Source: Sporomusa sphaeroides DSM 2875
Lineage (GTDB): Bacteria; Bacillota; Negativicutes; Sporomusales; Sporomusaceae
Direction of reading: 5' to 3'
Assembly (NCBI RefSeq): GCF_001941975.2
Contig: NZ_CP146991.1
Coordinates: forward strand, 4,151,001 to 4,215,000
Length of the DNA: 64,000 nucleotides
Position numbers and translations under genes: made by a program. This document shows, piece by piece, positions 1-34,565 of the stretch. How positions within the stretch are numbered: the first letter of the stretch is position 1; every line of letters starts with the position of its first letter. Below the pieces are notes generated by a model. The model made no database searches, was not told the origin of the DNA, and saw only the letters and a list, made by a program, of their open reading frames with translations.

Positions 1-13
1 AAGGAAGTTGTTA

Positions 14-1732
14 ATGACGACAGACTTATTAGAAAAATTGAAAGAGGCTGCGCAATCGGTCTTGCCAGTCAGTGCCATTGTACTTGCTTTGCATTTTACG
101 ATATCTCCTCTGCCGTTTTGGTCTTTGATGCTGTTTCTTACAGGCACCCTCCTGCTCATTATCGGCATGAGCATTTTTACCATGGGCGCCGACATTGCCA
201 TGATGCCTATCGGGGAAGCCATCGGCGCAGAATTAACCAAATCAAAAAACATCTGGCTGATCGTCGGCTCCGCGTTTATTCTGGGTGTGGTTGTCACCAT
301 AGCCGAGCCGGATTTGCAGGTACTAACCAAACAGGTACCGGCGGTGCCTGATATGGTTCTGGTAAGTTCGGTGGCTTTTGGCGTAGGTGTGTTTCTCGTG
401 TTAGCACTACTGCGCATTCTATTCCAGTTTTCACTGTCCTATATGTTTATTGTATCGTATGTGATATTGTTCATTGTCGCCGCACTGACGGCACCCGATT
501 TTCTGGCTGTCGGCTTTGATTCCGGCGGCGTAACCACCGGGCCGATCACAGTACCGTTTATTCTTGCCCTGGGCGCCGGTATTTCTGCAGTAAGAGGCGG
601 TAAAAGTTCGGAAGAAGATAGTTTCGGCCTTTGCTCGTTATGTTCCATCGGTCCTGTTTTAGCGGTTTTAGTTATGGGTATGTTTTTTGATGCCTCAGGT
701 TCCGGGTTCGCCTTTGAACCAAACGCCAGCGTAAATAATCTTGGCGAATTATTAGATTCCTATTATCTGGGCTTTGTCCTGTTATTTGAGGAAGTCTTAA
801 CCATCCTCCTGCCAATTGTGGTTATTTTTATACTTTTCCAGTTCATTCGCTTGAAATTGTCAAAAACAAAATTAATACGAATATTGATCGGTATTGTCTA
901 CACCTTGATCGGGCTCTCCATCTTCCTGACTGGCGTCAATATCGGTTTTATGCCTGCAGGCACTTATATTGGCAAAGAACTTGCCACCCTTCCTTATAAT
1001 TGGATTCTGATTCCTCTGAGCGCAATCATCGGCTTCTTTGTCGTTTACGCCGAACCTGCCGTTCATGTACTCAACAAGCAGGTTGAGGATATAACCAGCG
1101 GCTCCATCTCCAAAAAGATGATGATGACAGGCTTGTCTTTAGGCACAAGTGCTGCTTTGATATTATCGGTGGTACGAATTTTAACCGAAATCAGCATTTG
1201 GTACTTTTTGCTTCCGGGATATTTGCTGGCTTTGGGATTAACCTTTTTTACACCAAAAATATTTACAGCCATTGCTTTTGACTCCGGCGGGGTTGCGGCC
1301 GGCACCATGACTGCGGCGTTTTTGCTTCCCTTTGCCGTGGGTATCTGCGAAGCTGTCGGCGGCAATGTCATGACAGATGCCTTTGGCATTATTGCCATGG
1401 TGGCAATGATGCCATTGATAACCATACAGGTCGTTGGGGTTATTTACAACATGAAGCTTATGCACAACAAAAACCTGGAGGAAAATCTGCATACCGATTT
1501 GCTATTCGCAACTTCGTTTGATGAATTTGATGAACCTGCCGGCAGCGATAGTGCCACCGCTCCATTGCCCTATGCCGAAGGCGATGAAAATTCCTATAAT
1601 CTAAATAATAAGAATGACTTGGATTTGCATACAACACATGATAATATAATAGAGTTGACAGAGGACCAAAAAGATGCAAACCTCAAGGAATGCGAGCAAG
1701 AAAATAACCTGACGGCTCGAAAGGAGAAATAA
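14..1732 (+). CDS. DUF1538 family integral membrane protein with duplicated domain
   Basis: Polytopic membrane protein of about 572 residues made of two homologous DUF1538 halves. The duplication is visible: a DSGGV-x2-G-x2-T stretch occurs near residue 165 and again near 420, and an IG-MP-G-IG-EL stretch near residues 58 and 315. A hydrophilic acidic tail of about 70 residues follows the last membrane segment. The ATG at 14 is preferred because AAGGAAG ends 6 bases before it; the in-frame TTG at 8 touches the ribosome site. The next gene starts 4 bases after the stop and encodes a PII-like protein. Family knowledge gives DUF1538 proteins as presumed transporters of unknown substrate; the PII pairing suggests cytoplasmic gating, which is inference. 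Confidence 0.85.
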   Translation: MTTDLLEKLKEAAQSVLPVSAIVLALHFTISPLPFWSLMLFLTGTLLLIIGMSIFTMGADIAMMPIGEAIGAELTKSKNIWLIVGSAFILGVVVTIAEPDLQVLTKQVPAVPDMVLVSSVAFGVGVFLVLALLRILFQFSLSYMFIVSYVILFIVAALTAPDFLAVGFDSGGVTTGPITVPFILALGAGISAVRGGKSSEEDSFGLCSLCSIGPVLAVLVMGMFFDASGSGFAFEPNASVNNLGELLDSYYLGFVLLFEEVLTILLPIVVIFILFQFIRLKLSKTKLIRILIGIVYTLIGLSIFLTGVNIGFMPAGTYIGKELATLPYNWILIPLSAIIGFFVVYAEPAVHVLNKQVEDITSGSISKKMMMTGLSLGTSAALILSVVRILTEISIWYFLLPGYLLALGLTFFTPKIFTAIAFDSGGVAAGTMTAAFLLPFAVGICEAVGGNVMTDAFGIIAMVAMMPLITIQVVGVIYNMKLMHNKNLEENLHTDLLFATSFDEFDEPAGSDSATAPLPYAEGDENSYNLNNKNDLDLHTTHDNIIELTEDQKDANLKECEQENNLTARKEK

Positions 1733-22577: not shown

Positions 22578-23399
22578 TCAGGAGCGGCAGCTGGCCGGGC
22601 GCAGTGTACTGGGAGAAAAGCCTGTACGTTTTTTGAATAGCTTACTGAAATAATAAGGGTCGGAGTAACCTACGCAAGCGGAAATATCCGTGACAGAGCA
22701 GGCTGTGGTATACAACATCTCGCGGGCACGCCGCACCCGGTGTTCAATCAGATATTCAAGCGGCGCCATACCGATATGCTTTTGAAACAAATAGGCAAAC
22801 TGTTTGCTGTTTAAACCATACTTTCTGGCCAATTTAGCCACAGTGAGCGGTTCCATGTAATGCTGCTTAATATATTCTACAGCCTGCTCCACCAGTTCCC
22901 GGCCCGGTTCGCTGTGGCGGCTGCCGGCGCAGGTCAGGCTTTCATCCAGAATGCTCAGAAACAGCGAGTGGGCCTGCAACGCCGACAAATTGCCGGGCGT
23001 TGTGCAGACATCATACAAGCGCTGCAGCAAATCATGAATACGCGGACTGTAGCCTGTATCAATCTGATAATGGGAAAATGCCTGGGGAAACTCGTTTTTG
23101 GCACTGTTGTCCACCTGATAATGGATGACCATATAATTCCATTCAGCACTCCCCACAACTTCTTTGTCCATTGATATATTCGGACCGCCGTGAAAAATTT
23201 TCCCCGGTTCCATCGTATAGGGCACACCGTCAAAAAACATTCTCGCCCGCCCCCTTAGGGGGAAAATCAAACCCGAGACCGGCGGCGTAAACATGCCAAA
23301 ACATCTCCCCCCCGGCGGCACAATCGCTCTGACCACATCAACAATTTGGAATCTATTGCGGGTAAAGTTTCCCGCTAACTGATTAATATCCACATGCAT
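22578..23399 (-). CDS. AraC family transcriptional regulator (probable siderophore-uptake activator)
   Basis: A 273-residue regulator. The N-terminal ~130 residues form a cupin-like ligand domain (PPGGRCFGMFTPPVSGLIFPL, then an MEPGKIFHGGPN turn). The C-terminal ~100 residues hold two helix-turn-helix motifs, LTVAKLARKYGLNSKQFAYLF and VTDISACVGYSDPYYFSKLF with frame variation, and the family signature. It diverges from the TonB-receptor operon across a 402-base control region with a Fur box and three direct repeats. Many AraC regulators of siderophore uptake (PchR, YbtA, Btr types) sense the imported siderophore; that role is inferred here. Confidence 0.88.
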   Translation of the reverse strand: MHVDINQLAGNFTRNRFQIVDVVRAIVPPGGRCFGMFTPPVSGLIFPLRGRARMFFDGVPYTMEPGKIFHGGPNISMDKEVVGSAEWNYMVIHYQVDNSAKNEFPQAFSHYQIDTGYSPRIHDLLQRLYDVCTTPGNLSALQAHSLFLSILDESLTCAGSRHSEPGRELVEQAVEYIKQHYMEPLTVAKLARKYGLNSKQFAYLFQKHIGMAPLEYLIEHRVRRAREMLYTTACSVTDISACVGYSDPYYFSKLFKKRTGFSPSTLRPASCRS

Positions 23400-23503: not shown

Positions 23504-23518
23504 TGATAATCAATATCA
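23504..23518. promoter_or_regulatory. Fur box
   Basis: TGATAATCAATATCA matches the 7-1-7 Fur consensus (TGATAAT-N-ATTATCA) with a single mismatch. It sits about 105 bases upstream of the AraC start codon and about 280 upstream of the receptor gene. Confidence 0.7.
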
Positions 23519-23684: not shown

Positions 23685-23708
23685 TTATTCTATATGTACT
23701 AAGCATTT

Positions 23709-23727
23709 GATATTGATACTCACTCTC
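23709..23727 (+). promoter_or_regulatory. Second Fur-like site before the receptor gene
   Basis: GATATTGATACTCACTCTC matches 15 of 19 positions of the classical Fur consensus and lies 75 bases before the receptor start. Confidence 0.5.
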
Positions 23728-23801
23728 ATTTTTTTTTTGCACAGGCATTAATAGAAAACTAACGCCTGATTCTCTTTTCCACCCGCAAAGGAGCTGACAG
23801 T

Positions 23802-26063
23802 ATGAAAAAAAAATTGTCCCCAGCCAGAAAACGCTTGTTGTACGCCCTGGTCGGCAGCAGCCTGTTCTGGCACACGCCGGCATTTATCTATGCCGAAGAT
23901 ACGCCGGAAATCGTCCCCACAGCCGGCCGGACCGATACCCAAACGGCAGCTAAACCAACTGCCAAACAGCATGAATTTACGCTGGAGGGGATTGAAGTAA
24001 CCGCCAGCCGCCAAACACTTTCACCGGCCTACGCCGGCGGACAGGTAGCCCGCGGCGCCAATCTCGGCGTACTGGGCAACAGGGACTTTATGGACACGCC
24101 CTTTAGCGTCACCAGCTACACCGCCCGGATCATCGAAGACCAGCAGGCCAATACGCTGTACGACGTGCTGATCAACGATCCGTCCGTACGCTTTACCACC
24201 CCCACCGGCCAGGCTGCTGAATATTATAAAATCCGCGGCCTGGACGTAGCTATGGAACACCTTTATTTTAACGGCATGCCAGGATTGGCCCCCTACTATC
24301 GTGTTCCCGTTGAATTCCTTGAACGGGTTGAAGTGCTCAAAGGACCCGGTTCCCTGCTTTACGGCGGCGTGAATGCCTCGGTGGGCGGTGCAATCAACCT
24401 TGTTCCCAAACGCGCCGGCGCTGAGGATGTCACCAGTTTTACGACAAATTATACCTCTTCGTCCCACTGGGGCGGACATCTCGACCTTGGCCGGCGTTTT
24501 GGCCAAAACAAGGAATGGGGCATCCGCATCAACGGCCTGTACGTTGATGGTGACACCGAAACGGATGGGCAGTCGAGAGAACGGCTGCTGGGCTCTCTGG
24601 GTTTGGATTACCGCCATGACCGCTGGCGCCTGTCCCTGGATGCTTACGGCTCCCAGGATTATTATGAAAACGGCCTCATCTCCATGTATCAGTTGCAGAG
24701 CAATAATATTAAAGCACCTCACGGTTCGACCAATCTGCTTAAAGGCACTACCGGCGCTATCCGGAATAACGGGATTTTGTTTAAAGGCGAATACGACCTG
24801 CGGGAAAACCTAACCTCCTACTTCGGCTTTGGCAAGGCCGCCTCCAGAGCCACCGGCTTCGTCAACGGCAATCATATTTTGCTTGTCCAAGCCGATGGAA
24901 CCGCCTATCCCCGCAATCTCTTCAAACAGAACTTTTGGAACGACGCCACTTCTTCCGAACTAGGATTGCGCGGCAATTACCAGACCGGCTCGGTCAGGCA
25001 TCAGTTGGTTCTAAGCTCCAGCTTTCTTAATAATGAGTATTCGAGCACATTCAACCGTTATGTTACTACCCCTTACATGAGTGGTTACCCTATCAGTATC
25101 TATGATGACTCCTTCTCCTTCGCTGATTTATTTGACAAGGTGGCCTGGGCAGGCAAAGGCGGCAAGACGGCTACCTCGGACCTGGCCAGTTATCTGCTGG
25201 CCGATACCCTTTCCTTCCAGGAGGACAAGGTCCAGCTCACCTTGGGCGTGCGCCGGCAAAGTGTCAAAACAAAGAATTTCAATGCAGTCACCGGCGCCCG
25301 GACCGCCGAGCATGACGCCGATAAAACGCTGCCGCTGGTCGGCTTTGTCATCAAACCCTGGGGTAACTCGGTTGCACTCTATGGCAACTACATGGAAGCC
25401 CTTTCCCCCGGTGCGGAGGTCGGCGCCACCTTAGGCTATACGAACTCCGGCCAGCTAATGGCACCGTATACCAGCAAACAAAAAGAACTTGGCGTCAAAT
25501 GGGACAAAGGTAAATTCGCCAATACGCTGTCTGTGTTTCAAATCAACAGACCCAACACAATGATTGTTACCAACAGCCTCAATCAAAAAACCCAGACCTA
25601 TGACGGCGAACAGGAAAGCCGGGGTGTGGAATGGAACACCTTTGGCGAAATCGCTGAAAATGTACGCCTGTTGGGAGGCATCAGCTATCTGCAGGGTGAA
25701 ATAACTAACGCCGCTGATGCCGCAACAAAAGGCAACATCCCCTTCGGCATACCCAAATGGACGATGAACGCCGGTGTCGAGTGGGACACGCCCTGGAATA
25801 AGGATCTGACGCTGTCGCTGCGGGCCGTGTACACCGACTCCCAGTATATTAACAATGCCAATACCATCAAACTGCCGAGCTGGGTACGTTATGACATCGG
25901 TGCGCGCTATAAAACCGAGATCAATAACCTCCCGGTCACCTACCGGCTCAGTGTGGAAAACCTGTTTGACAAACAATACTGGGCAGGCGCTTTCAGCATG
26001 GAGGGTTTTGCCACATTAGGCGGCCCCCGCACCGTTAAGCTGTCGGCAACCATGCAGTTCTAA
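23802..26063 (+). CDS. TonB-dependent siderophore receptor (outer membrane)
   Basis: A 753-residue outer-membrane receptor. Signal peptide of about 31 residues (basic start, hydrophobic core, cut before EDTPEI). A short linker leads to a TonB-box-like region, then the plug domain (about 85-200, with SVTSYTARIIEDQQANTLYDVL and VLKGPGSLLYGG segments with frame variation). A 22-strand beta barrel follows, ending VKLSATMQF with the terminal phenylalanine required for outer-membrane insertion. Overall form is the FhuA/ferrichrome-iron type. It is the first gene of an eight-gene operon and lies behind Fur sites, so it is probably iron-repressed. Ligand is unknown; no TonB or ExbBD gene is in the window. 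Confidence 0.93.
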   Translation: MKKKLSPARKRLLYALVGSSLFWHTPAFIYAEDTPEIVPTAGRTDTQTAAKPTAKQHEFTLEGIEVTASRQTLSPAYAGGQVARGANLGVLGNRDFMDTPFSVTSYTARIIEDQQANTLYDVLINDPSVRFTTPTGQAAEYYKIRGLDVAMEHLYFNGMPGLAPYYRVPVEFLERVEVLKGPGSLLYGGVNASVGGAINLVPKRAGAEDVTSFTTNYTSSSHWGGHLDLGRRFGQNKEWGIRINGLYVDGDTETDGQSRERLLGSLGLDYRHDRWRLSLDAYGSQDYYENGLISMYQLQSNNIKAPHGSTNLLKGTTGAIRNNGILFKGEYDLRENLTSYFGFGKAASRATGFVNGNHILLVQADGTAYPRNLFKQNFWNDATSSELGLRGNYQTGSVRHQLVLSSSFLNNEYSSTFNRYVTTPYMSGYPISIYDDSFSFADLFDKVAWAGKGGKTATSDLASYLLADTLSFQEDKVQLTLGVRRQSVKTKNFNAVTGARTAEHDADKTLPLVGFVIKPWGNSVALYGNYMEALSPGAEVGATLGYTNSGQLMAPYTSKQKELGVKWDKGKFANTLSVFQINRPNTMIVTNSLNQKTQTYDGEQESRGVEWNTFGEIAENVRLLGGISYLQGEITNAADAATKGNIPFGIPKWTMNAGVEWDTPWNKDLTLSLRAVYTDSQYINNANTIKLPSWVRYDIGARYKTEINNLPVTYRLSVENLFDKQYWAGAFSMEGFATLGGPRTVKLSATMQF

Positions 26064-26190: not shown

Positions 26191-27162
26191 ATGAAAAGAT
26201 TAATCGGACTCATCGTCTCACTCGCGCTGCTGACAGGCTTGCTAACCGGCTGCGCCGGCACTCCTGCGGCAACTGCGCCAGACAAGCCGGCGGCACAACG
26301 CACTGAGCCGGCGATGCATGCCGCATGGCCGCGGACGATTACAGACGCAGCCGGAAATAAAGTTATTTTAAAAGAGCCGCCGCAAAGAATAGCGATTCTT
26401 CATTCCCTGTATCTGGAATACTTTTTTGCCCTGGGAACACCGCCAATTGCGTCCATGGGTGCTTCGAAGGGAAACGCAATGAAGGCGTTGGCGGAATGGG
26501 AGACGCTTAAACCCTATGCAGGCACAGCCGCCATTATGGACTTAGGCAGTGCCCGCGAGTTGAACCTGGAGGCAATTTTAGCAGCAAATCCGGATGTCAT
26601 TGTTACTTTTAAAGGTCAGGGGCATTTAGCTGAAATTTATGACCAATTAGCACAGATTGCGCCTGTCATTCAAATTGATTTTAACGCTTCCTGGCAGGAC
26701 CAGACCCTGGCCTGCGCTGAAATTGTCGGGAGAGAAGCCTTTGCCCGGGGGTTCATTGCCGAAACTGAGACAAGCATTGCCACCGCCAAAGATAAGCTGA
26801 GCAGCCACCACAACAAAACAATTGCCCTGTTCCGCACAGATGGAAAATCATTTATCTCCCGCGGCAACAAGGAGTATTACGAAACTTTCGGAATTGCCAG
26901 GCCCCGGGGCTATCCGGATGATTATCAAACCTTATCCCTGGAGGCTGTCGCTGAGATGAATCCCGATTATATTGTTTTTCAGGATTCCACTCAAGCTGCG
27001 CAGACATTTGTGCAAGCGCAGGCAGCCTCCGCCGTCTGGCTGTCCCTGACGGCGGTAAAAAACGGACAGGTCATCTATTTTGACGATTCCCTCAATACCT
27101 TTGGACCTCTTGCCATGCGGGCTGCGGCTGACAAGCTGGTACAGATATTTTCAGAGAAATAA
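26191..27162 (+). CDS. FecB/BtuF-type ABC transporter substrate-binding lipoprotein
   Basis: A 323-residue lipoprotein. Lipobox LLTGC gives lipidated Cys21, followed by a Pro/Ala linker and a periplasmic-binding fold of the iron-chelate class (about 50-320) with PQRIAILHSLYLEY, the NPDVIVTF strand and a NPDYIVFQDS strand. It captures an iron chelate, haem or corrinoid in the periplasm and passes it to the FecCD permease pair encoded next. GGAGG lies 7 bases before the ATG. No terminator separates it from the receptor gene 127 bases upstream. Confidence 0.9.
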   Translation: MKRLIGLIVSLALLTGLLTGCAGTPAATAPDKPAAQRTEPAMHAAWPRTITDAAGNKVILKEPPQRIAILHSLYLEYFFALGTPPIASMGASKGNAMKALAEWETLKPYAGTAAIMDLGSARELNLEAILAANPDVIVTFKGQGHLAEIYDQLAQIAPVIQIDFNASWQDQTLACAEIVGREAFARGFIAETETSIATAKDKLSSHHNKTIALFRTDGKSFISRGNKEYYETFGIARPRGYPDDYQTLSLEAVAEMNPDYIVFQDSTQAAQTFVQAQAASAVWLSLTAVKNGQVIYFDDSLNTFGPLAMRAAADKLVQIFSEK

Positions 27163-27254: not shown

Positions 27255-28298
27255 ATGAAACTGACATCCAAACCGGCCCGGACGGCTCAAATAAGTAAAA
27301 AAGGCCGCCCGTGGACAGCGTGGCTCATCATCGTAACAGGACCGGGGCTGCTGGCCCTGCTCATGGCGTTCTCCATCACTGAAGGGGCGGCGGAAATTCC
27401 GCTGTCTGCGGTATGGGAGGCCCTGTTTCATTTTGACGCAAAAAATACCCGGCATTTGATTATTGTTGATCTCCGCCTGCCCCGCGTTATTGCCAGCGCC
27501 CTGGCTGGCGCTGCTCTGGCCGTAGCAGGCGCCATCATGCAGGGCACAACCCGCAATCCCCTCGCCGATTCAGGACTAATGGGCCTGAACGCCGGCGCAG
27601 GTTTTGCCCTGGCCATTTGCTTTGCCTTCTTTCCGCACCTGGGCTATCTGCAAATTATCCTGTTTTCCTTTTTGGGCGCGGCTCTGGGTGCGGCGCTGGT
27701 GGGCGGCATCGCTGCCCTGCGCCGCGGCGGCGCTACGCCAATGCGGCTGGTATTGGCGGGGGCAGCGGTCAGCGCGCTGCTGGCGGCGCTCAGCCAGGGC
27801 ATTGCCCTGTATTTCAATGTCGCTCAAAATATGATGTTCTGGACGGCCGGCGGCGTGGCCGGTTCCAACTGGGAGCAAATCAAAATTATGGCACCCTGGA
27901 TACTCGGCGCGCTGTTGGGAGCCCTCACCCTTGCCCGCTCCGTCTCCCTGCTGAGCCTTGGCCAGGATGTAGCCAAGGGCCTGGGGCTGAATACGATGGT
28001 GAATCAGGTGCTGTGCTTGCTGGCCGTACTGATACTGGCGGGCGCCTCCGTTGCCGTCGTGGGTGCCGTTGGCTTTGTGGGCCTGATCATCCCTCATCTG
28101 GCGCGGTATTTTGTAGGCGTCGATTACTGCCGGGTTATCCCGGCCTCGGCGGTGTTGGGCGCACTGCTCCTGGTACTGGCCGATTTGGGCGCCAGGACGC
28201 TCAACCCGCCTTTTGAAACCCCTATCGGCGCACTGATCGGGCTAATCGGCGTCCCTTTCTTTTTATATCTTGCCCGCAAGCAAAGGATGGGACTATGA
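27255..28298 (+). CDS. FecCD-family ABC permease (first)
   Basis: A 347-residue inner-membrane permease with about nine to ten segments, of the iron-siderophore/B12 class. Recognisable segments are LRLPRVIASALAGAALAVAG, QGTTRNPLADSGLMGLNAGA and the C-terminal GLIIPHLARYFVG that contacts the ATPase. It pairs with the next permease as a heterodimer. The ATG has only a weak GAGG 13 bases upstream. Its stop overlaps the next start by 4 bases. The G+C content rises from here to about 31 kb compared with the flanks. Confidence 0.92.
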   Translation: MKLTSKPARTAQISKKGRPWTAWLIIVTGPGLLALLMAFSITEGAAEIPLSAVWEALFHFDAKNTRHLIIVDLRLPRVIASALAGAALAVAGAIMQGTTRNPLADSGLMGLNAGAGFALAICFAFFPHLGYLQIILFSFLGAALGAALVGGIAALRRGGATPMRLVLAGAAVSALLAALSQGIALYFNVAQNMMFWTAGGVAGSNWEQIKIMAPWILGALLGALTLARSVSLLSLGQDVAKGLGLNTMVNQVLCLLAVLILAGASVAVVGAVGFVGLIIPHLARYFVGVDYCRVIPASAVLGALLLVLADLGARTLNPPFETPIGALIGLIGVPFFLYLARKQRMGL

Positions 28299-29335
28299 TG
28301 ACAAACCAGCTGCAGGCAAACCAAACCTATAAAAGAAAAATTGCTGTGCGCCACACGGCCGTGATTGCCGGCTGCTCGGTGCTGCTCATACTTTCTTTCA
28401 TCATCAGCATGAACACCGGCTACACAAAACTGGCGCCGCTGGATACGCTGCGCACGCTGTTCGGCGGCGGCACGGCCAGGGAAAACCTGATTCTATTCGA
28501 TTTCCGGCTGCCCCGGATTGTGATTTCCATCCTGGTGGGGGCAGGGCTGGCGCTGTCCGGCTGCATCATCCAGGGCGTCGCCAAAAACGCGCTGGCCGAC
28601 CCGGGCCTGCTCGGCATTAACGCCGGCGCGGGCCTGATGGTCATCCTGTATGTGCTGTTCTTCGGGACCCAATCCTTGCTGTCGGTATTCACGCTGCCGT
28701 TTCTGGCACTGTTTGGCGCCGGCATAACGGCGGTGATCATCTATGCGCTGGCCTTCAAGAAAGCAGAAGGTGTAGCGCCCCTGCGCCTGATTTTAACCGG
28801 GGTGGCAGTACAGGCCGGCATTTCGTCCCTGACCACCGTGCTGGTAGTCAAGCTGGCTGACACTCAGTTTGACTTTGTAGCAACCTGGCAGGCAGGCAGT
28901 ATCTGGGCCAGCAACTGGAAATTCGTGCTGGCCTTGCTGCCTTGGCTGCTACTCCTAATTCCCTATGTATTGTTCAAATCCCGCGTGCTGGATGTGCTGA
29001 ATTTGGGGGACGATGTGGCCCACAGCCTGGGCGCGGCAGTGGAGCGGGAACGGCGCAGGCTGCTTGCCGCTGCGGTCGCGCTGGCTGCGGCCTGCGTGGC
29101 GGTCAGCGGCAGCATCAGCTTTGTGGGGCTGATCGCACCCCATCTGGCGCGCCGGCTGGTAGGCCCGAAGCATGGGATTTTGCTGCCCACCTGTGCGCTG
29201 ACAGGAGCGGTGCTGGTCTCGGCGGCAGATACCGCAGCCCGGATGATCCTGCAGCCTGCGGAAATTCCCACCGGCATCATGGTGGCCATTATCGGCGCAC
29301 CGTACTTCCTCTATCTTTTGATGAAAAGCCGCTAA
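28295..29335 (+). CDS. FecCD-family ABC permease (second)
   Basis: A 346-residue permease homologous to the preceding one: FRLPRIVISILVGAGLALSG, NALADPGLLGINAGAGL and GLIAPHLARRLVG. It starts with ATG overlapping the upstream stop (ATGATG), so translation is coupled. Together with the first permease it forms the translocation channel for the imported chelate. Confidence 0.92.
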   Translation: MMTNQLQANQTYKRKIAVRHTAVIAGCSVLLILSFIISMNTGYTKLAPLDTLRTLFGGGTARENLILFDFRLPRIVISILVGAGLALSGCIIQGVAKNALADPGLLGINAGAGLMVILYVLFFGTQSLLSVFTLPFLALFGAGITAVIIYALAFKKAEGVAPLRLILTGVAVQAGISSLTTVLVVKLADTQFDFVATWQAGSIWASNWKFVLALLPWLLLLIPYVLFKSRVLDVLNLGDDVAHSLGAAVERERRRLLAAAVALAAACVAVSGSISFVGLIAPHLARRLVGPKHGILLPTCALTGAVLVSAADTAARMILQPAEIPTGIMVAIIGAPYFLYLLMKSR

Positions 29336-29352: not shown

Positions 29353-30153
29353 CTGAACAGCATCGCAACAGAGAATTTGTCCGTTGCCTACGAGGATAAC
29401 CTGATAGTGGATGGTTTGAATATGCAGGTCCCGCAGGGAAAAATTACAACCATCATCGGTCCAAACGGCTGCGGCAAGTCCACGGTATTAAAAGCCGTGG
29501 GGCGCATCCTGAAACCGAAAAACGGCGTGGTATATCTGAATGGGAAGGATATCCGGCACTTAACAACCAGGGAAGTAGCCAAAAAAATGGCCATTCTGCC
29601 GCAGTCGCCTCAGGCCCCGGCCGGTTTGACGGTGGGCGAACTGGTGGCCTACGGCCGCTTTCCTTACCAGCGGGGCTTAGGCAAACTAACCCTAGAGGAC
29701 CAAAAAATCATTGCCTGGGCGCTGGCGGCCACAAGGCTTACAGAGCTGGAAACCACGGCGGTGGACACCCTTTCCGGCGGGCAGCGCCAGCGGGTCTGGA
29801 TCGCCATGGCCCTTGCGCAGCAGACCGATTTGATTCTGCTGGATGAGCCGACTACCTATCTCGATTTGTCCTACCAGCTAGAAGTGCTGGAGCTGCTCTA
29901 CCGCCTGAACCGGGAACAGGGCTGCACCATTGTAATGGTGCTCCATGACCTCAACCTTGCCGCCCGCTTTGCCGACTACATGGTGGCCATCCGCTGCGGG
30001 AGCATTGTCCGCCACGGTTCACCTGAGGAAGTAATGACCGCAGAGGTATTGCGGGATACGTTCCGCATCGACGCCCGGATCATTACAGAACCCCGCACCG
30101 GTCGGCCCACCTGCATTTCCTACGACCTGATTAAAGATAACATCCCTATATGA
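29353..30153 (+). CDS. FecE/BtuD-type ABC transporter ATP-binding protein
   Basis: About 266 residues with Walker [11 protein letters not shown]-loop LPQSPQAP, signature [10 protein letters not shown], Walker B LILLDEPT and H-loop VLHD. It energises the FecCD permeases. The first strand ([13 protein letters not shown]) needs an upstream start. In frame there is a stop at 29344-29346, so the only good candidate with a ribosome site (AAAGGA, 9 bases) is CTG at 29353. The next is TTG at 29377, which would clip the first strand. The ATG at 29343 is out of frame. Confidence 0.88.
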
Positions 30154-30166
30154 AAGAAGGTGCCAG

Positions 30167-30922
30167 ATGAAAAAGATTGCAATTTACGGCAAAGGCGGTA
30201 TCGGCAAATCAACCACCGTATCCAATGTGGCGGCAGCCATGGCGGCGCTGGGACTGACCGTGCTGCAAGTCGGCTGCGACCCTAAGGCCGATTCCACCCG
30301 CACCCTGACCGGCGGGGAAAACATTCCCACCGTGCTCGATACCCTGCGGCAGAACGGCGACGCAGCGCTGGACGACCTTGTGGTCAAAAGCAGCACCGGC
30401 GTGCTGTGTGTAGAGTCGGGCGGACCGGTTCCCGGCGTGGGCTGTGCCGGACGCGGCATCATCACAGCTTTTGAAAAACTGGAGGAACTGGATGCCTACG
30501 AAGTTTACAAACCGGACGTGGTGCTGTACGACGTGCTGGGCGACGTGGTCTGCGGCGGCTTTGCCATGCCCATCCGGGGCGGCTATGCCGACGAGGTGTG
30601 CATTGTCACCTCCGGCGAGATGATGGCCCTTTACGCCGCAGCCAATATCGCCCACGCCGTCAAGAGCTTTGGCAAGCGCGGCTACGCCTCGCTGCGGGGG
30701 CTGATCCTTAACGCCAAGAACATTGCGGACGAACAGGAGCTGGTGGACAAGGCGGCGGCGGAGATCCAAACGCCGGTCATTTACCGGCTGCCCCGCGATC
30801 CGTTTGTGCAGCAGGCCGAAGCGCAGGGCAAAACGGTGGTAGAGGCTTTTCCGGCTTGCCCGATGGCGGCCCATTACCAGTCGCTTGCCAAACTGCTGCT
30901 GGAAGGAGGCGAAACGCGATAA
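30167..30922 (+). CDS. Nitrogenase iron protein-like reductase (NifH/BchL/CfbC superfamily)
   Basis: A 251-residue P-loop ATPase of the NifH superfamily. Walker [11 protein letters not shown] at residues 7-16 and the CDPKAD switch are present. Both inter-subunit [4Fe-4S] ligands are kept: Cys93 in PGVGCAGRG and Cys129 in [10 protein letters not shown]. The arginine at the NifH ADP-ribosylation position (CAGRG) is also present. It should donate electrons, with ATP hydrolysis, to the NifDK-like pair encoded next. It starts 13 bases after the ATPase gene with GAAGGTG. The absence of nifB, nifE and nifN here argues against nitrogen fixation. Confidence 0.93.
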
Positions 30923-30936
30923 ACGGACTAAAACAC

Positions 30937-32217
30937 TTGAAACGCCTGTCGGCAGTGAAGTCCAATACAGGCATAAAATTCCTGACGCCCGCTGTTTCCC
31001 CCGGCAACCACTGCCCGATGCGCATCGCGTCGGTAAATGTGAAAAATATCAGGGGCTTGTCTTCTTTACTGGTGGGAATGCCGGAATGCACCACCCACTC
31101 GCGGCTGTTCAACCCCCGTCCGGAGGGCCCGCAGGGCGAGCTGCACTGGCTGTATGTGCTGGATGCGCAGGAGGTGGTGTTCGGCTGCCGGAACGGGCTG
31201 ATCGCTGCCCTCCGGACAATGGACAAAGCCGGGGCCAAGGCCATTCTGCTGATTGTCACCTGCGTGCCGGAGCTGATTGGGGAGGACATCCAGGCAATTG
31301 TCAGGGAAGTGCAGCCGGAATTGTCTGCCCGCGTCACCTTCGTGCTGCTGGGCCAGTTCAAAAACATCAGCTATCCGCCTGGTTCGTGGAAAACGATGGA
31401 AGCGATGGGCACGCTGATGGCGGCAAAAACACCGGACTCCAGCCGTATTAACGTGCTGGGCCGCGCCCCGGGGGAAGAACATATCCCCCTGCCGTCCCTA
31501 CTGCCGGCGCTTGCCGGACAAGGCCTGAAGCTGCGCTATCTGGCACCGGGCGCTTCCCTGGAGGATTTCCAAAGCGCGCCGGACGCCGTCCTGAATTTGG
31601 TGGTTTCTCCCTTCATGCAGCCGCTGGCCGCCAGAATGGAACGGGAATTTGGCATACCCTATATTGCCCTGCATACACTATATGCTGTGGAAAGCATCGA
31701 CAAGGCTTATGCCGCCCTGGCAGAACATTTTGGCCTTGCCTGGGGCGATGCCTTTGCCCAGGAACGGCAGGAAGCCCTAGCCTGGCAAAACCAGGCAGTT
31801 GCGAGGCTTAAAGGCCTCCGGTATGTATTTTGTCCCCGCATTGACATTCCCCTGCCGCTGGCCGTCTATCTTACCGGGCTTGGCATGGAACCGCTGCTTT
31901 TACATTTGGAGGAATATTATCCGGAGGACAGGGACTATGCCCGGGAGCTTAACACCCTGGGCCATAATCCCTGGGTCTGCCGGATGGTAAATGCCCAAGC
32001 CGATTTGCCGGTTTTGAAAAAGCTGGCGCCGGATTTATGCTTTGGTTACCTGCCTGCTGCCCACCAACCCATTCCCTGCGTACCGGAGCTGCTTGATTTT
32101 TACGGACAAGTGGGCTATGCCCGGACCAGCCATCTGTTAAAAAGAATCTTAGGCGTAATGAATGGAATGGACGCCGCCGGAAAAGGAGGGACCGCCTATG
32201 GGTCTGCATCGTTTTAA
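30937..32217 (+). CDS. NifD-like component 1 of a nitrogenase-like reductase
   Basis: About 426 residues of the nitrogenase component-1 fold. Three cysteines match the NifD cluster ligands: Cys26 (GNHCPM), Cys51 (GMPECTTH) and Cys109 (VTCVPELIGEDI, matching the TC-x3-LIGDDI of NifD); Cys84 is extra. No clear FeMo-cofactor ligands are seen. Start is unsettled. TTG at 30937 has no ribosome site, whereas ATA at 30919, overlapping the NifH-like stop, has GGAGG 10 bases upstream and would add six residues. The frame also stays open back to 30856. Its 3' end overlaps the frame of the next gene. Confidence 0.85.
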   Translation: MKRLSAVKSNTGIKFLTPAVSPGNHCPMRIASVNVKNIRGLSSLLVGMPECTTHSRLFNPRPEGPQGELHWLYVLDAQEVVFGCRNGLIAALRTMDKAGAKAILLIVTCVPELIGEDIQAIVREVQPELSARVTFVLLGQFKNISYPPGSWKTMEAMGTLMAAKTPDSSRINVLGRAPGEEHIPLPSLLPALAGQGLKLRYLAPGASLEDFQSAPDAVLNLVVSPFMQPLAARMEREFGIPYIALHTLYAVESIDKAYAALAEHFGLAWGDAFAQERQEALAWQNQAVARLKGLRYVFCPRIDIPLPLAVYLTGLGMEPLLLHLEEYYPEDRDYARELNTLGHNPWVCRMVNAQADLPVLKKLAPDLCFGYLPAAHQPIPCVPELLDFYGQVGYARTSHLLKRILGVMNGMDAAGKGGTAYGSASF

Positions 32218-33427
32218 GCCGCTGCCTTCGGGCCGCATGGGTATTCTGTGGACACTTGCCACCATTCGTGACGCCGCCCTGGTGGAATTTGGCTGTATGG
32301 GACATATGCTTTACAGCGGTGTAACGCTCAAGCGCGCCGGCGTACATGATGCCTGCCGGCTTTACTCCACACATATCGACGAAACAGATATCGCCCTTGG
32401 CAGTACCGAGCGGCTTAACCATACCCTCGACAATGTGATAAAACGCGATCAGCCGCGGGTAATTTTCCTTTTGCCCTCGTCGATTCCCGAGGTGATCGGA
32501 ACAGATCTTCCTGCTCTCTGTGAGGAATTGCAGCCCGAATATCCTGACGTCCGCTTGCTGCCCTTCGGCTACGGCGGATTTAATATCACCCAGCACCGCG
32601 GCGTACAGGAAGCGCTGCTGCTGCTGGCCCAAACGCTGCCGGTGGAAGTACGGCCGACACCACAGCCGACGTTTAATATTATTGGCTCCTGTGCTGATCT
32701 GTTCCGCTTTCAGGCCGACGCGCTCGAGCTGGTCCGGATACTGGAGGGCACATTCGGCATCAAACCGCTGTGCGTGCTGACCTCGGCTGCGTCTGTTGCC
32801 GACATTGAGCAGATGGGCGGCGCCCATATTAACCTTGTCATCCGGCGCGAGGGCGAACCTGCAGCCAGGCATTTGCAGCAGCGCTTCGGGACCCCCTATC
32901 TTTTAGGGCGGCCCTACGGCCTTGACGGAACCAGGCGGTGGCTGGAGGAAATCGCGCAACTGGCCGGCCTGACGGCCGATTCCGCTTTCCTCAGGGCCCA
33001 GCAGAAGCTCTGCCGGCAGCAGCTTACAGCCGTTATGCCGGCCTTCGCGCACATGGTTAGAGCGCATCCGGCTGAAACCGCCTTGTCTTTAGGCGGGCAC
33101 GCAGATGTGGTCAAAGGCATTCTTGCTTTTGGCTGCGGCGAACTTGCCTTTGCCAAAGGAACCTGCTGGTGCGATTGTCCCGAGATGGCCAGCGGGGATA
33201 TCCCCTATTTTGCGGAGGCTGAGTGGACGCGGGCCGTCCGGGAACACAAGCAGGGTATACTTATGGCCAGCGGCGAAGCGCTGGCCTGGGCGGACCGCAA
33301 TACGGAGCTGCAAATTTCCAACCCGGACATAAAATGGCGGCTGCACCCGTATGAACCGCCCTTGATGGGTTTTCGCGGCGCTGTACAGCTGGCGAATCTG
33401 TGGATCAACGAGAATATTGAGGATTAA
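32198..33427 (+). CDS. NifK-like component 1 partner subunit
   Basis: A 409-residue component-1 homologue. The ATG at 32198 has AAGGAGGG 7 bases upstream; it overlaps the end of the NifD-like gene by 20 bases. Alignment by eye to NifK gives Cys33 (FGCMGH) at the position of NifK Cys95, a conserved DACRLYSTHIDETDIALGS block, and serine (LPSSIPEVIGTDL) where NifK has its third cluster cysteine. The N-terminal region carrying the first cysteine is missing. With the partner's three cysteines this gives a 3+1 pattern. It is the last gene of the operon and a bidirectional terminator follows. Confidence 0.85.
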   Translation: MGLHRFKPLPSGRMGILWTLATIRDAALVEFGCMGHMLYSGVTLKRAGVHDACRLYSTHIDETDIALGSTERLNHTLDNVIKRDQPRVIFLLPSSIPEVIGTDLPALCEELQPEYPDVRLLPFGYGGFNITQHRGVQEALLLLAQTLPVEVRPTPQPTFNIIGSCADLFRFQADALELVRILEGTFGIKPLCVLTSAASVADIEQMGGAHINLVIRREGEPAARHLQQRFGTPYLLGRPYGLDGTRRWLEEIAQLAGLTADSAFLRAQQKLCRQQLTAVMPAFAHMVRAHPAETALSLGGHADVVKGILAFGCGELAFAKGTCWCDCPEMASGDIPYFAEAEWTRAVREHKQGILMASGEALAWADRNTELQISNPDIKWRLHPYEPPLMGFRGAVQLANLWINENIED

Positions 33428-33479: not shown

Positions 33480-34565
33480 TTATTCAGGCTGTCCCTCAGG
33501 TCCGGGTTTGGGGCCATGGCCTTTATGCATATGGCCTTTGCTGTTAATCATGTTATCCACCCGTTGCTCCATCTTTTCCTTCATTTTGTCGGCTTTCTCC
33601 ACCGTCAGTTTACCGGCCTTTACGCCTTCGTCAAGCCGCTGGGTCATCTGGGCAACCAGGAAGTCTTTAAGCTCCTGTTCAGAAACGCCCTGTTCATTGG
33701 CAATAGCCACTAAGGTTTTTCCGGCCTGCCGCTCGGTTTTGAAGGTTGCGGCATCCATTTTGAGCAGTGCTAAGAGTTCGCTGTTGTCAAACGCATGCCC
33801 CCGCATATGTCCCGGTCCCATATGCATAGGCCCTTGGCCATTAATCATAGCTGCAACCCGGGCAGGCATATCGGCCTTGATTTTTTCAGCTTTTTCCGCT
33901 GTCAGCTTACCGGTTTTTACGCCTTCGTCAAGCCGCTGAGTCATCTGTTCTGTCAGGAAATTTTGGAGTGACTGTTCCGACACCCCCTGCTCTTTCGCAA
34001 TAGCTGCTAAGGTTTTCCCGGCCTGCCGCTCAGTTTTGAAGGTTGCGGCATCCATTTTAAGCAGTGCTAAGAGTTTGCTGTTGTCAAACGCATGCCCCCG
34101 CATATGTCCCGGTCCCATATGCATAGGCCCTTTGCCATTAATCATATCGGCAACCCGGGCAGGCATATCGGCCTTGATTTTCTCAGCTTTTTCCGCTGTC
34201 AGCTTACCTGTTTTTACGCCTTCGTCAAGCCGCTGGGTCATTTGTTCTATCAGGAAATTTTGGAGTGACTGTTCCGACACCCCCTGCTCTTTCGCAATAG
34301 CCGCCAGGGTTTTGCCCTCTTTCATGGCAGCACGAAACGCTGCTTCATCCATTTTCAGAAAAGCCAATAATTTAGTCTGGCTTTCTTTAAAACCTTTCAT
34401 GCCATGCCGGTCAGGTCTGTCGGCTTTGTGGGCAATACCGCTTCTTTTGCCATTTGCTATATCTTGCTGGTCTGCAGTTACCGCCGCCATTGCGATACCA
34501 TTTACCGTAATCATGGCGGCAATACCAAGGGCCACATACCATTTTTTATTCTTGTTCATATACAA
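33480..34565 (-). CDS. Secreted protein with three 99-residue DUF2680-like repeats
   Basis: A 361-residue exported protein. Signal peptide of about 27 residues (MNKNKKWYVALGIAAMITV start, from the second methionine). It then has three tandem repeats of about 99 residues, each with LLALLKMDAATFK, GKTLAAIAKEQGVSEQ and a LDEGVKTGKLTAEKAEKIK helix, and a Met/His/Gly-rich spacer (GPMHMGPGHMRGH). The helix pattern resembles DUF2680/YckD-type proteins. The Met/His-rich linkers could bind metal; that is inference. Repeats 1 and 2 are nearly identical at DNA level with a 297-bp period, pointing to a recent duplication or gene conversion. Confidence 0.75.
   Translation of the reverse strand: MYMNKNKKWYVALGIAAMITVNGIAMAAVTADQQDIANGKRSGIAHKADRPDRHGMKGFKESQTKLLAFLKMDEAAFRAAMKEGKTLAAIAKEQGVSEQSLQNFLIEQMTQRLDEGVKTGKLTAEKAEKIKADMPARVADMINGKGPMHMGPGHMRGHAFDNSKLLALLKMDAATFKTERQAGKTLAAIAKEQGVSEQSLQNFLTEQMTQRLDEGVKTGKLTAEKAEKIKADMPARVAAMINGQGPMHMGPGHMRGHAFDNSELLALLKMDAATFKTERQAGKTLVAIANEQGVSEQELKDFLVAQMTQRLDEGVKAGKLTVEKADKMKEKMEQRVDNMINSKGHMHKGHGPKPGPEGQPE
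33721..34318 (-). repeat. Near-identical tandem 297-bp DNA repeat within the secreted-protein gene
   Basis: The segment beginning GGCCTGCCGCTC at 33723 recurs at 34020 with only scattered substitutions over almost 300 bases. A more divergent third unit covers the rest of the gene. Confidence 0.8.

Follow-up and report, generated by a model that had tools for sequence, protein, structure and literature searches.

COR (BchX-BchY-BchZ) acts on a tetrapyrrole and carries a [4Fe-4S] cluster only, for which three cysteines of BchY and one of BchZ are the four candidate ligands, the latter at the canonical position (Cys35). DPOR (BchL-BchN-BchB) is a two-component, ATP-driven enzyme with three cysteines on its D-type subunit and no P-cluster, and its cluster is ligated by (Cys)3Asp (PMC4157233). 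CfbCD, of F430 biosynthesis, has a NifH-like partner and a [4Fe-4S] cluster only; CfbD forms homodimers, and a K subunit is lacking. MarHDK (methylthio-alkane reductase) and IsrHDK (isethionate reductase) are nitrogenase-like, nutrient-scavenging systems with radical SAM partners; Mar contains a P-cluster with six cysteines, three per subunit, and [Fe8S9C], and Isr is transporter-linked with a 1+3 distribution of cysteines. Nitrogenase-like genes with variable cysteine counts and linkage to ABC transporters were described by Dos Santos et al. in 2012 (PMC3464626), and the general kind to which the present locus belongs has thus been known since then. Their group from C. botulinum and A. oremlandii has three cysteines in the NifE-like protein, none in the NifN-like protein and an adjoining ABC ATPase (PMC3464626). 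No nitrogenase-like enzyme linked to Fur or to siderophores turned up in our literature search, although one may have been described elsewhere, and nitrogenase goes unmentioned in the C. difficile Fur study.

The window, i.e. the whole 64-kb stretch of DNA analysed here, includes a NifH-type ATPase and two component-1 subunits that score above the curated cut-offs of PF00142 and PF00148 (Table 1), placing them in the nitrogenase superfamily. Their genes (H, D and K) are the last of what looks like a single operon, in which they follow genes for a TonB receptor, a binding protein, two FecCD permeases and an ATPase, and an AraC-family regulator is encoded divergently upstream. The protein encoded beyond K, at 33480-34565, looks secreted and has about three repeats and a DUF2680 domain at its end.

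Table 1. Features of the nitrogenase-like locus and its promoter region, with positions numbered from the first base of the window
Feature	Position	Strand	Remarks
AraC-family regulator, divergent from operon	22578..23399	-	Pfam HTH_AraC/HTH_18; homologous gene in 20 loci
Fur box TGATAATCAATATCA, AraC/TonB intergenic	23504..23518		1 mismatch to 7-1-7 consensus (13/14)
Second, weaker overlapping Fur-like pair, upstream of TonB receptor gene	23708..23728		3 mismatches each
TonB-dependent receptor, siderophore subfamily	23802..26063	+	TIGR01783
Periplasmic/lipoprotein binding protein	26191..27162	+	Peripla_BP_2
FecCD permease 1	27255..28298	+	PF01032
FecCD permease 2	28295..29335	+	PF01032
ABC ATPase, FecE-like	29377..30153	+	NF008409 FecE 311.7 bits, under cut-off 375
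NifH-like ATPase/reductase	30167..30922	+	PF00142, 316 bits
NifD-like subunit	30919..32217 (mechanical start TTG 30937)	+	PF00148 2.4e-69, 235 bits
D Cys26 codon	31012..31014	+	NifD Cys62 position
D Cys51 codon	31087..31089	+	NifD Cys88 position
D Cys109 codon	31261..31263	+	NifD Cys154 position
D Cys348 codon	31978..31980	+	Invariant 34/34; no known ligand position
NifK-like subunit	32198..33427	+	PF00148 2.4e-52, 179 bits
K Cys33 codon	32294..32296	+	NifK Ser92 position; invariant
K His36 codon	32303..32305	+	NifK Cys95/BchB Asp36 position; invariant
K Ser95 codon	32480..32482	+	NifK Cys153 position; Ser/Ala in family
K Cys165 codon	32690..32692	+	Invariant in family, not in sister clade
K Cys325 codon	33170..33172	+	Invariant in family save one gap; not in sister clade

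The D-like gene probably starts at the in-frame ATA at 30919 rather than at TTG 30937. This ATA lies 8 bases past a GGAGG and overlaps the stop codon of the nifH-like gene (ATAA); relatives have ATG, GTG or TTG at the start site, and ATA is also found in two Pelosinus loci. An ATA start, if conserved, would be unusual, and its use would move the D residue numbers given here by 6.

Orthologs of K are encoded at 33 loci, a lower bound, as the scan of genome contigs used short patterns. They were found in Pelosinus, Tissierella, Anaerospora, Metaclostridioides, Clostridium, Paenibacillus, Seleniivibrio and Lacrimispora, among others. Of these loci, 19-20 also have the clusters of the binding protein, permease and ATPase and 20 have the regulator, and the gene set kept across relatives is AraC-PBP-FecCD-FecCD-ATPase-H-D-K. 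Neighbours conserved at three or more loci are limited to the regulator, receptor, transporter and H-D-K genes, plus a handful of unrelated ones shared by 3-4 loci; by inspection, none of them is a radical SAM B partner of the Mar, Isr or Nfa type. Several loci of rumen or termite origin have H-D-K with no neighbouring transporter, and examination of the neighbours at loci lacking a transporter revealed no consistent alternative partner. At one further locus (L087, G203:C1:1662000-1680000), the K ortholog directly follows the AraC gene, and H and D are missing, as if deleted. In the ortholog alignment of the NifH-like protein, the P-loop and the cluster ligands Cys93 and Cys129 are invariant.

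In a 62-row tree, the D group and the K group are each fully supported (100/100), with D and K of a sister clade as their nearest neighbours and BchB, BchZ, BchN, BchY and the Nif proteins outside; the deeper branching order in this tree is unsure, as the branches are long. Scores against the models for known enzymes all fall below the cut-offs, namely 38 of 420 bits for BchN, 91.7 of 490 for BchB, 45.9 of 529 for BchZ, 329.7 of 402 for CfbC and 19.8 of 268.4 for CfbD. Identity to DPOR is 20-23 %, K falls outside the BchB branch, and the genes belong to an iron-uptake operon rather than to a set of bch genes. Unlike CfbCD, two subunit genes are present. The family differs from each of DPOR, COR, Cfb, Mar and nitrogenase. 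The sister clade (L055-L063) shares the fold pair, an operon of H, transporter, D and K, and Fur boxes. However, it has one permease, its transporter genes lie between H and D, and its K protein has Pro33/Thr36 (Ala33/Thr36 in L063) in place of Cys33/His36 and lacks Cys165, His301 and Cys325. As its 3+0 cysteine count and neighbouring ABC ATPase match the published description (PMC3464626), this clade is probably the C. botulinum/A. oremlandii group of 2012.

Four other nitrogenase-like loci are present in the same genome. L048 (C1:774000-790000) has an H-D-K set between TonB receptors, with genes for a BtuR/CobA corrinoid adenosyltransferase and for a binding protein next to it. L046 and L047 (at about 1.098 and 1.136 Mb) each have a D-K pair with no adjoining NifH, beside what by eye are Ssu-type transporters, and L046 is also near genes that, again by eye, are corrinoid and methyltransferase-like genes. 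In L049 (C1:2976000-2992000), H-D-K are followed by genes for a binding protein, a FecCD-like permease and an ATPase, with no clear Fur box, and this set is related to one on a Treponema saccharophilum plasmid.

Conservation was assessed in alignments of 34 D and 34 K sequences. The earlier note on this DNA had placed three D cysteines at NifD ligand positions and a single K cysteine, Cys33, at that of NifK Cys95. The D assignment holds: Cys26, Cys51 and Cys109 align with NifD Cys62, Cys88 and Cys154 and with the cysteines of BchN and BchY, and they are present in 32-33 of the 34 sequences, the remainder being gaps, i.e. they are invariant wherever a residue exists. For K, Cys33 does exist and is invariant (34/34), as is His36 (34/34), but it is His36 that occupies the NifK Cys95 position, and Cys33 falls on NifK Ser92. 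In a multiple alignment that is gapless here, K G32-C33-M34-G35-H36 lies on NifK G-S-Q-G-C(95), and the same stretch aligns with ...P-Q-G-D(36) of BchB and ...P-V-G-C(35) of BchZ. In the closest relatives, those of the sister clade (EYGPAG[T]THY), the Thr aligns with K His36 and not with Cys33, and this register is kept for 34 of 34 K sequences at a high gap cost (14). In AlphaFold monomers, the third position of the helix that follows a strand is taken by Cys51 in D and by residue 36 in K, and K and BchB superpose structurally from 5..409 on 5..409 (reported end points), consistent with a zero offset. However, pairwise alignments to some Cys-bearing relatives put Cys33 on the ligand position, as Cys-Cys matches dominate there. 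Pairwise alignments are therefore ambiguous, and the His36 register rests on the multiple alignment, the closest relatives and the structural models. Hence, the canonical ligand place in K is that of His36, where DPOR has Asp and COR has Cys, and Cys33 is a second invariant candidate three residues earlier. The iron ligand from K may be Cys33, His36 or both, the odds between the two being about equal.

Only three of the six P-cluster ligand positions are cysteines, all of them in D; K has Gly12/Arg13 at the place of the first NifK cysteine in the reference alignment, His36 at the second and, as the earlier note had seen, Ser95 at the third. NifD Cys275 is replaced by Ser and His442 by Leu, Phe or Met. 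Thus, neither the six P-cluster cysteines nor the cofactor ligands Cys275 and His442 of the Mo, V and Fe nitrogenases are found, in agreement with the earlier claim that both a P-cluster and FeMo-cofactor ligands are lacking. Although the genome analysed here carries nifB alongside nifDKEN, a search for the NifB radical-SAM core found no match beyond weak fragments in at least 5 of 16 ortholog-bearing genomes, drafts included (L015, L016 and L018, all Metaclostridioides/Clostridioides mangenotii, L022 and L041); L012, with a weak fragment only, is a sixth. As the P-cluster and FeMo-cofactor ligand sets are absent and these genomes have no NifB core match, a complex cofactor in D-K is unlikely. 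The same evidence makes one [4Fe-4S] cluster, held by the three D cysteines and by K Cys33 and/or His36, the best reading. The AlphaFold model of K (pLDDT 86), whose closest fold is DPOR BchB (Z 38-39; 39.1), was also counted in favour of one simple cluster. The simple, DPOR-like cluster proposed earlier is thus favoured, and its fourth ligand as a cysteine at the canonical position is not. If present, the predicted set of three D cysteines with His36 and/or the register-shifted Cys33 of K is not described for the superfamily. By comparison with DPOR, the active site may plausibly be open enough to admit a bulky substrate.

The box at 23504-23518 is the best match to the Fur consensus in the window. 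Boxes matching at 12-14 of 14 positions were found in the corresponding promoters of Pelosinus (L009, L011), Anaerospora (L013) and Metaclostridioides (L018), as well as in a Paenibacillaceae MAG (L026) and in Paenibacillus (L027, where the match is perfect), and three sister-clade operons with their other gene order have boxes of 12-13/14. For comparison, 95 % of shuffled sequences reach only 10-11. In most of the Clostridial promoters examined, no Fur box above this background was detected within the 250 bases tested, and the upstream stretches tested for the four paralogous loci and the Treponema plasmid locus contain no convincing box. A near-consensus predicted box in the promoter, with consensus matches kept across relatives, suggests membership of the Fur regulon, and the operon is apparently switched on at low iron.

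The TonB receptor passes the siderophore model TIGR01783 (341.8 bits, cut-off 223.5) and fails those for heme (TIGR01785, 67 of 316.85) and B12 (TIGR01779, 45 of 600), and FRAP and NPNL motifs were not found in it. The binding protein scores higher as FepB/FecB than as IsdE. Cobalamin transport was rejected, as the receptor is not of the BtuB type and neither the window region nor any of seven loci yielded a cobalamin riboswitch. In Sporomusa termitida, the operon is followed, after K, by a gene for an esterase (PF00756) that among the NCBIfam models matches enterochelin esterase best, but weakly and well under the cut-off; esterases of this class hydrolyse catecholate siderophores in other systems.

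As the operon is shared with a siderophore-type importer and appears to be induced at low iron, the enzyme probably reduces not nitrogen but an imported iron compound. We propose that it is an iron-starvation-induced, two-component, ATP-gated reductase with a single [4Fe-4S] cluster, acting on an imported ferric chelate, most probably a siderophore, and we give this reading a probability of about 0.5. More tentatively, it may be a nitrogenase-type enzyme dedicated to extracting iron from ferric siderophores under anoxia by means of a novel [4Fe-4S] ligand set. Low iron would relieve repression by Fur, and the AraC regulator may sense the ligand. The chelate would enter through the TonB receptor, the binding protein and the FecCD/FecE-type transporter that the operon also encodes. 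The NifH-like dimer would then pass low-potential electrons, one per ATP-driven docking, to the D/K interface cluster, for which Cys26, Cys51 and Cys109 of D and Cys33 and/or His36 of K would be the ligands. From there they would go straight to the substrate in its cavity, without an intervening FeMo-type cofactor, and reduction of the ferric chelate would free usable iron. Seven K residues could line the substrate site, judging from the model: Cys165, His301, Asp303, Cys325, Asp326, Glu360 and Asp377 are invariant (Cys325 save one gap) and mostly lie at or just past the C-terminal ends of strands. The very negative potentials of Fe(III)-siderophores hinder iron release, and a reduction step is often needed (PMC11965169); an ATP-gated donor would suit such chelates. 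However, flavin-type siderophore-interacting proteins reduce ferric siderophores cheaply, and the use of an ATP-driven enzyme would thus call for a particular justification.

The alternative that survives best is an anaerobic reductase of heme or another iron-tetrapyrrole, in which the macrocycle of an imported heme or porphyrin would be reduced as the first step of O2-free degradation and iron release. K is nearest to DPOR BchB in sequence as well as in fold, the characterised [4Fe-4S]-only members of the superfamily, DPOR and Cfb, act on tetrapyrroles (PMC12552129), and heme scavenging would also be compatible with Fur control. However, the receptor misses the heme models by a wide margin and lacks FRAP/NPNL motifs, the binding protein resembles FepB/FecB more than IsdE, and the conserved neighbours include no recurrent extra gene able to degrade heme, and we consider this unlikely.

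Less probable still is a metallocluster assembly or maturation factor, in which transported iron would be built into a cluster on a NifEN-like DK for another enzyme. The weak best similarity of D is to NifE, and Dos Santos et al. proposed a coupling of metal transport to cofactor assembly from the ABC transporter linkage that they saw (PMC3464626), but the genes adjoin neither a conserved client enzyme nor a radical SAM partner, the cofactor ligands are absent and several genomes are without a NifB core.

There is also a small chance of a second metal centre besides the interface [4Fe-4S], formed by the cysteines at K165, K323/325 and D348 with His301/Asp303. Within the family they vary little or not at all, and K165, K301 and K325 are among those at or just past strand ends in the K model, but the sister clade does not share these three or D348, which correspond to no known ligand positions, and they may instead bind substrate or be structural. 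A corrinoid (cobamide) reductase or activator supplied by a B12-type transporter is improbable, since the adenosyltransferase beside another nitrogenase-like pair of this genome and the corrinoid protein encoded downstream at one ortholog locus (L029) are set against the lack of a riboswitch, a receptor of another type and Fur boxes that indicate iron.

Returning to the reduction of an imported ferric chelate, the operon context is a larger finding than the cysteine pattern, which the earlier note had not linked to the Fur-regulated, siderophore-type transporter. Many anaerobes carry nitrogenase-like genes that serve neither nitrogen fixation nor pigment synthesis, and few of these have an assigned role. 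Fur control together with a siderophore transporter suggests a concrete, testable role, iron acquisition, for one nitrogenase-like family. The residues at the position of the fourth ligand, Cys in Nif and COR, Asp in DPOR, His here and Thr in the sister clade, form a natural series in which the tuning of cluster potential by the ligand can be studied. Should the proposed role prove true, it would extend ATP-gated electron transfer to a new purpose.
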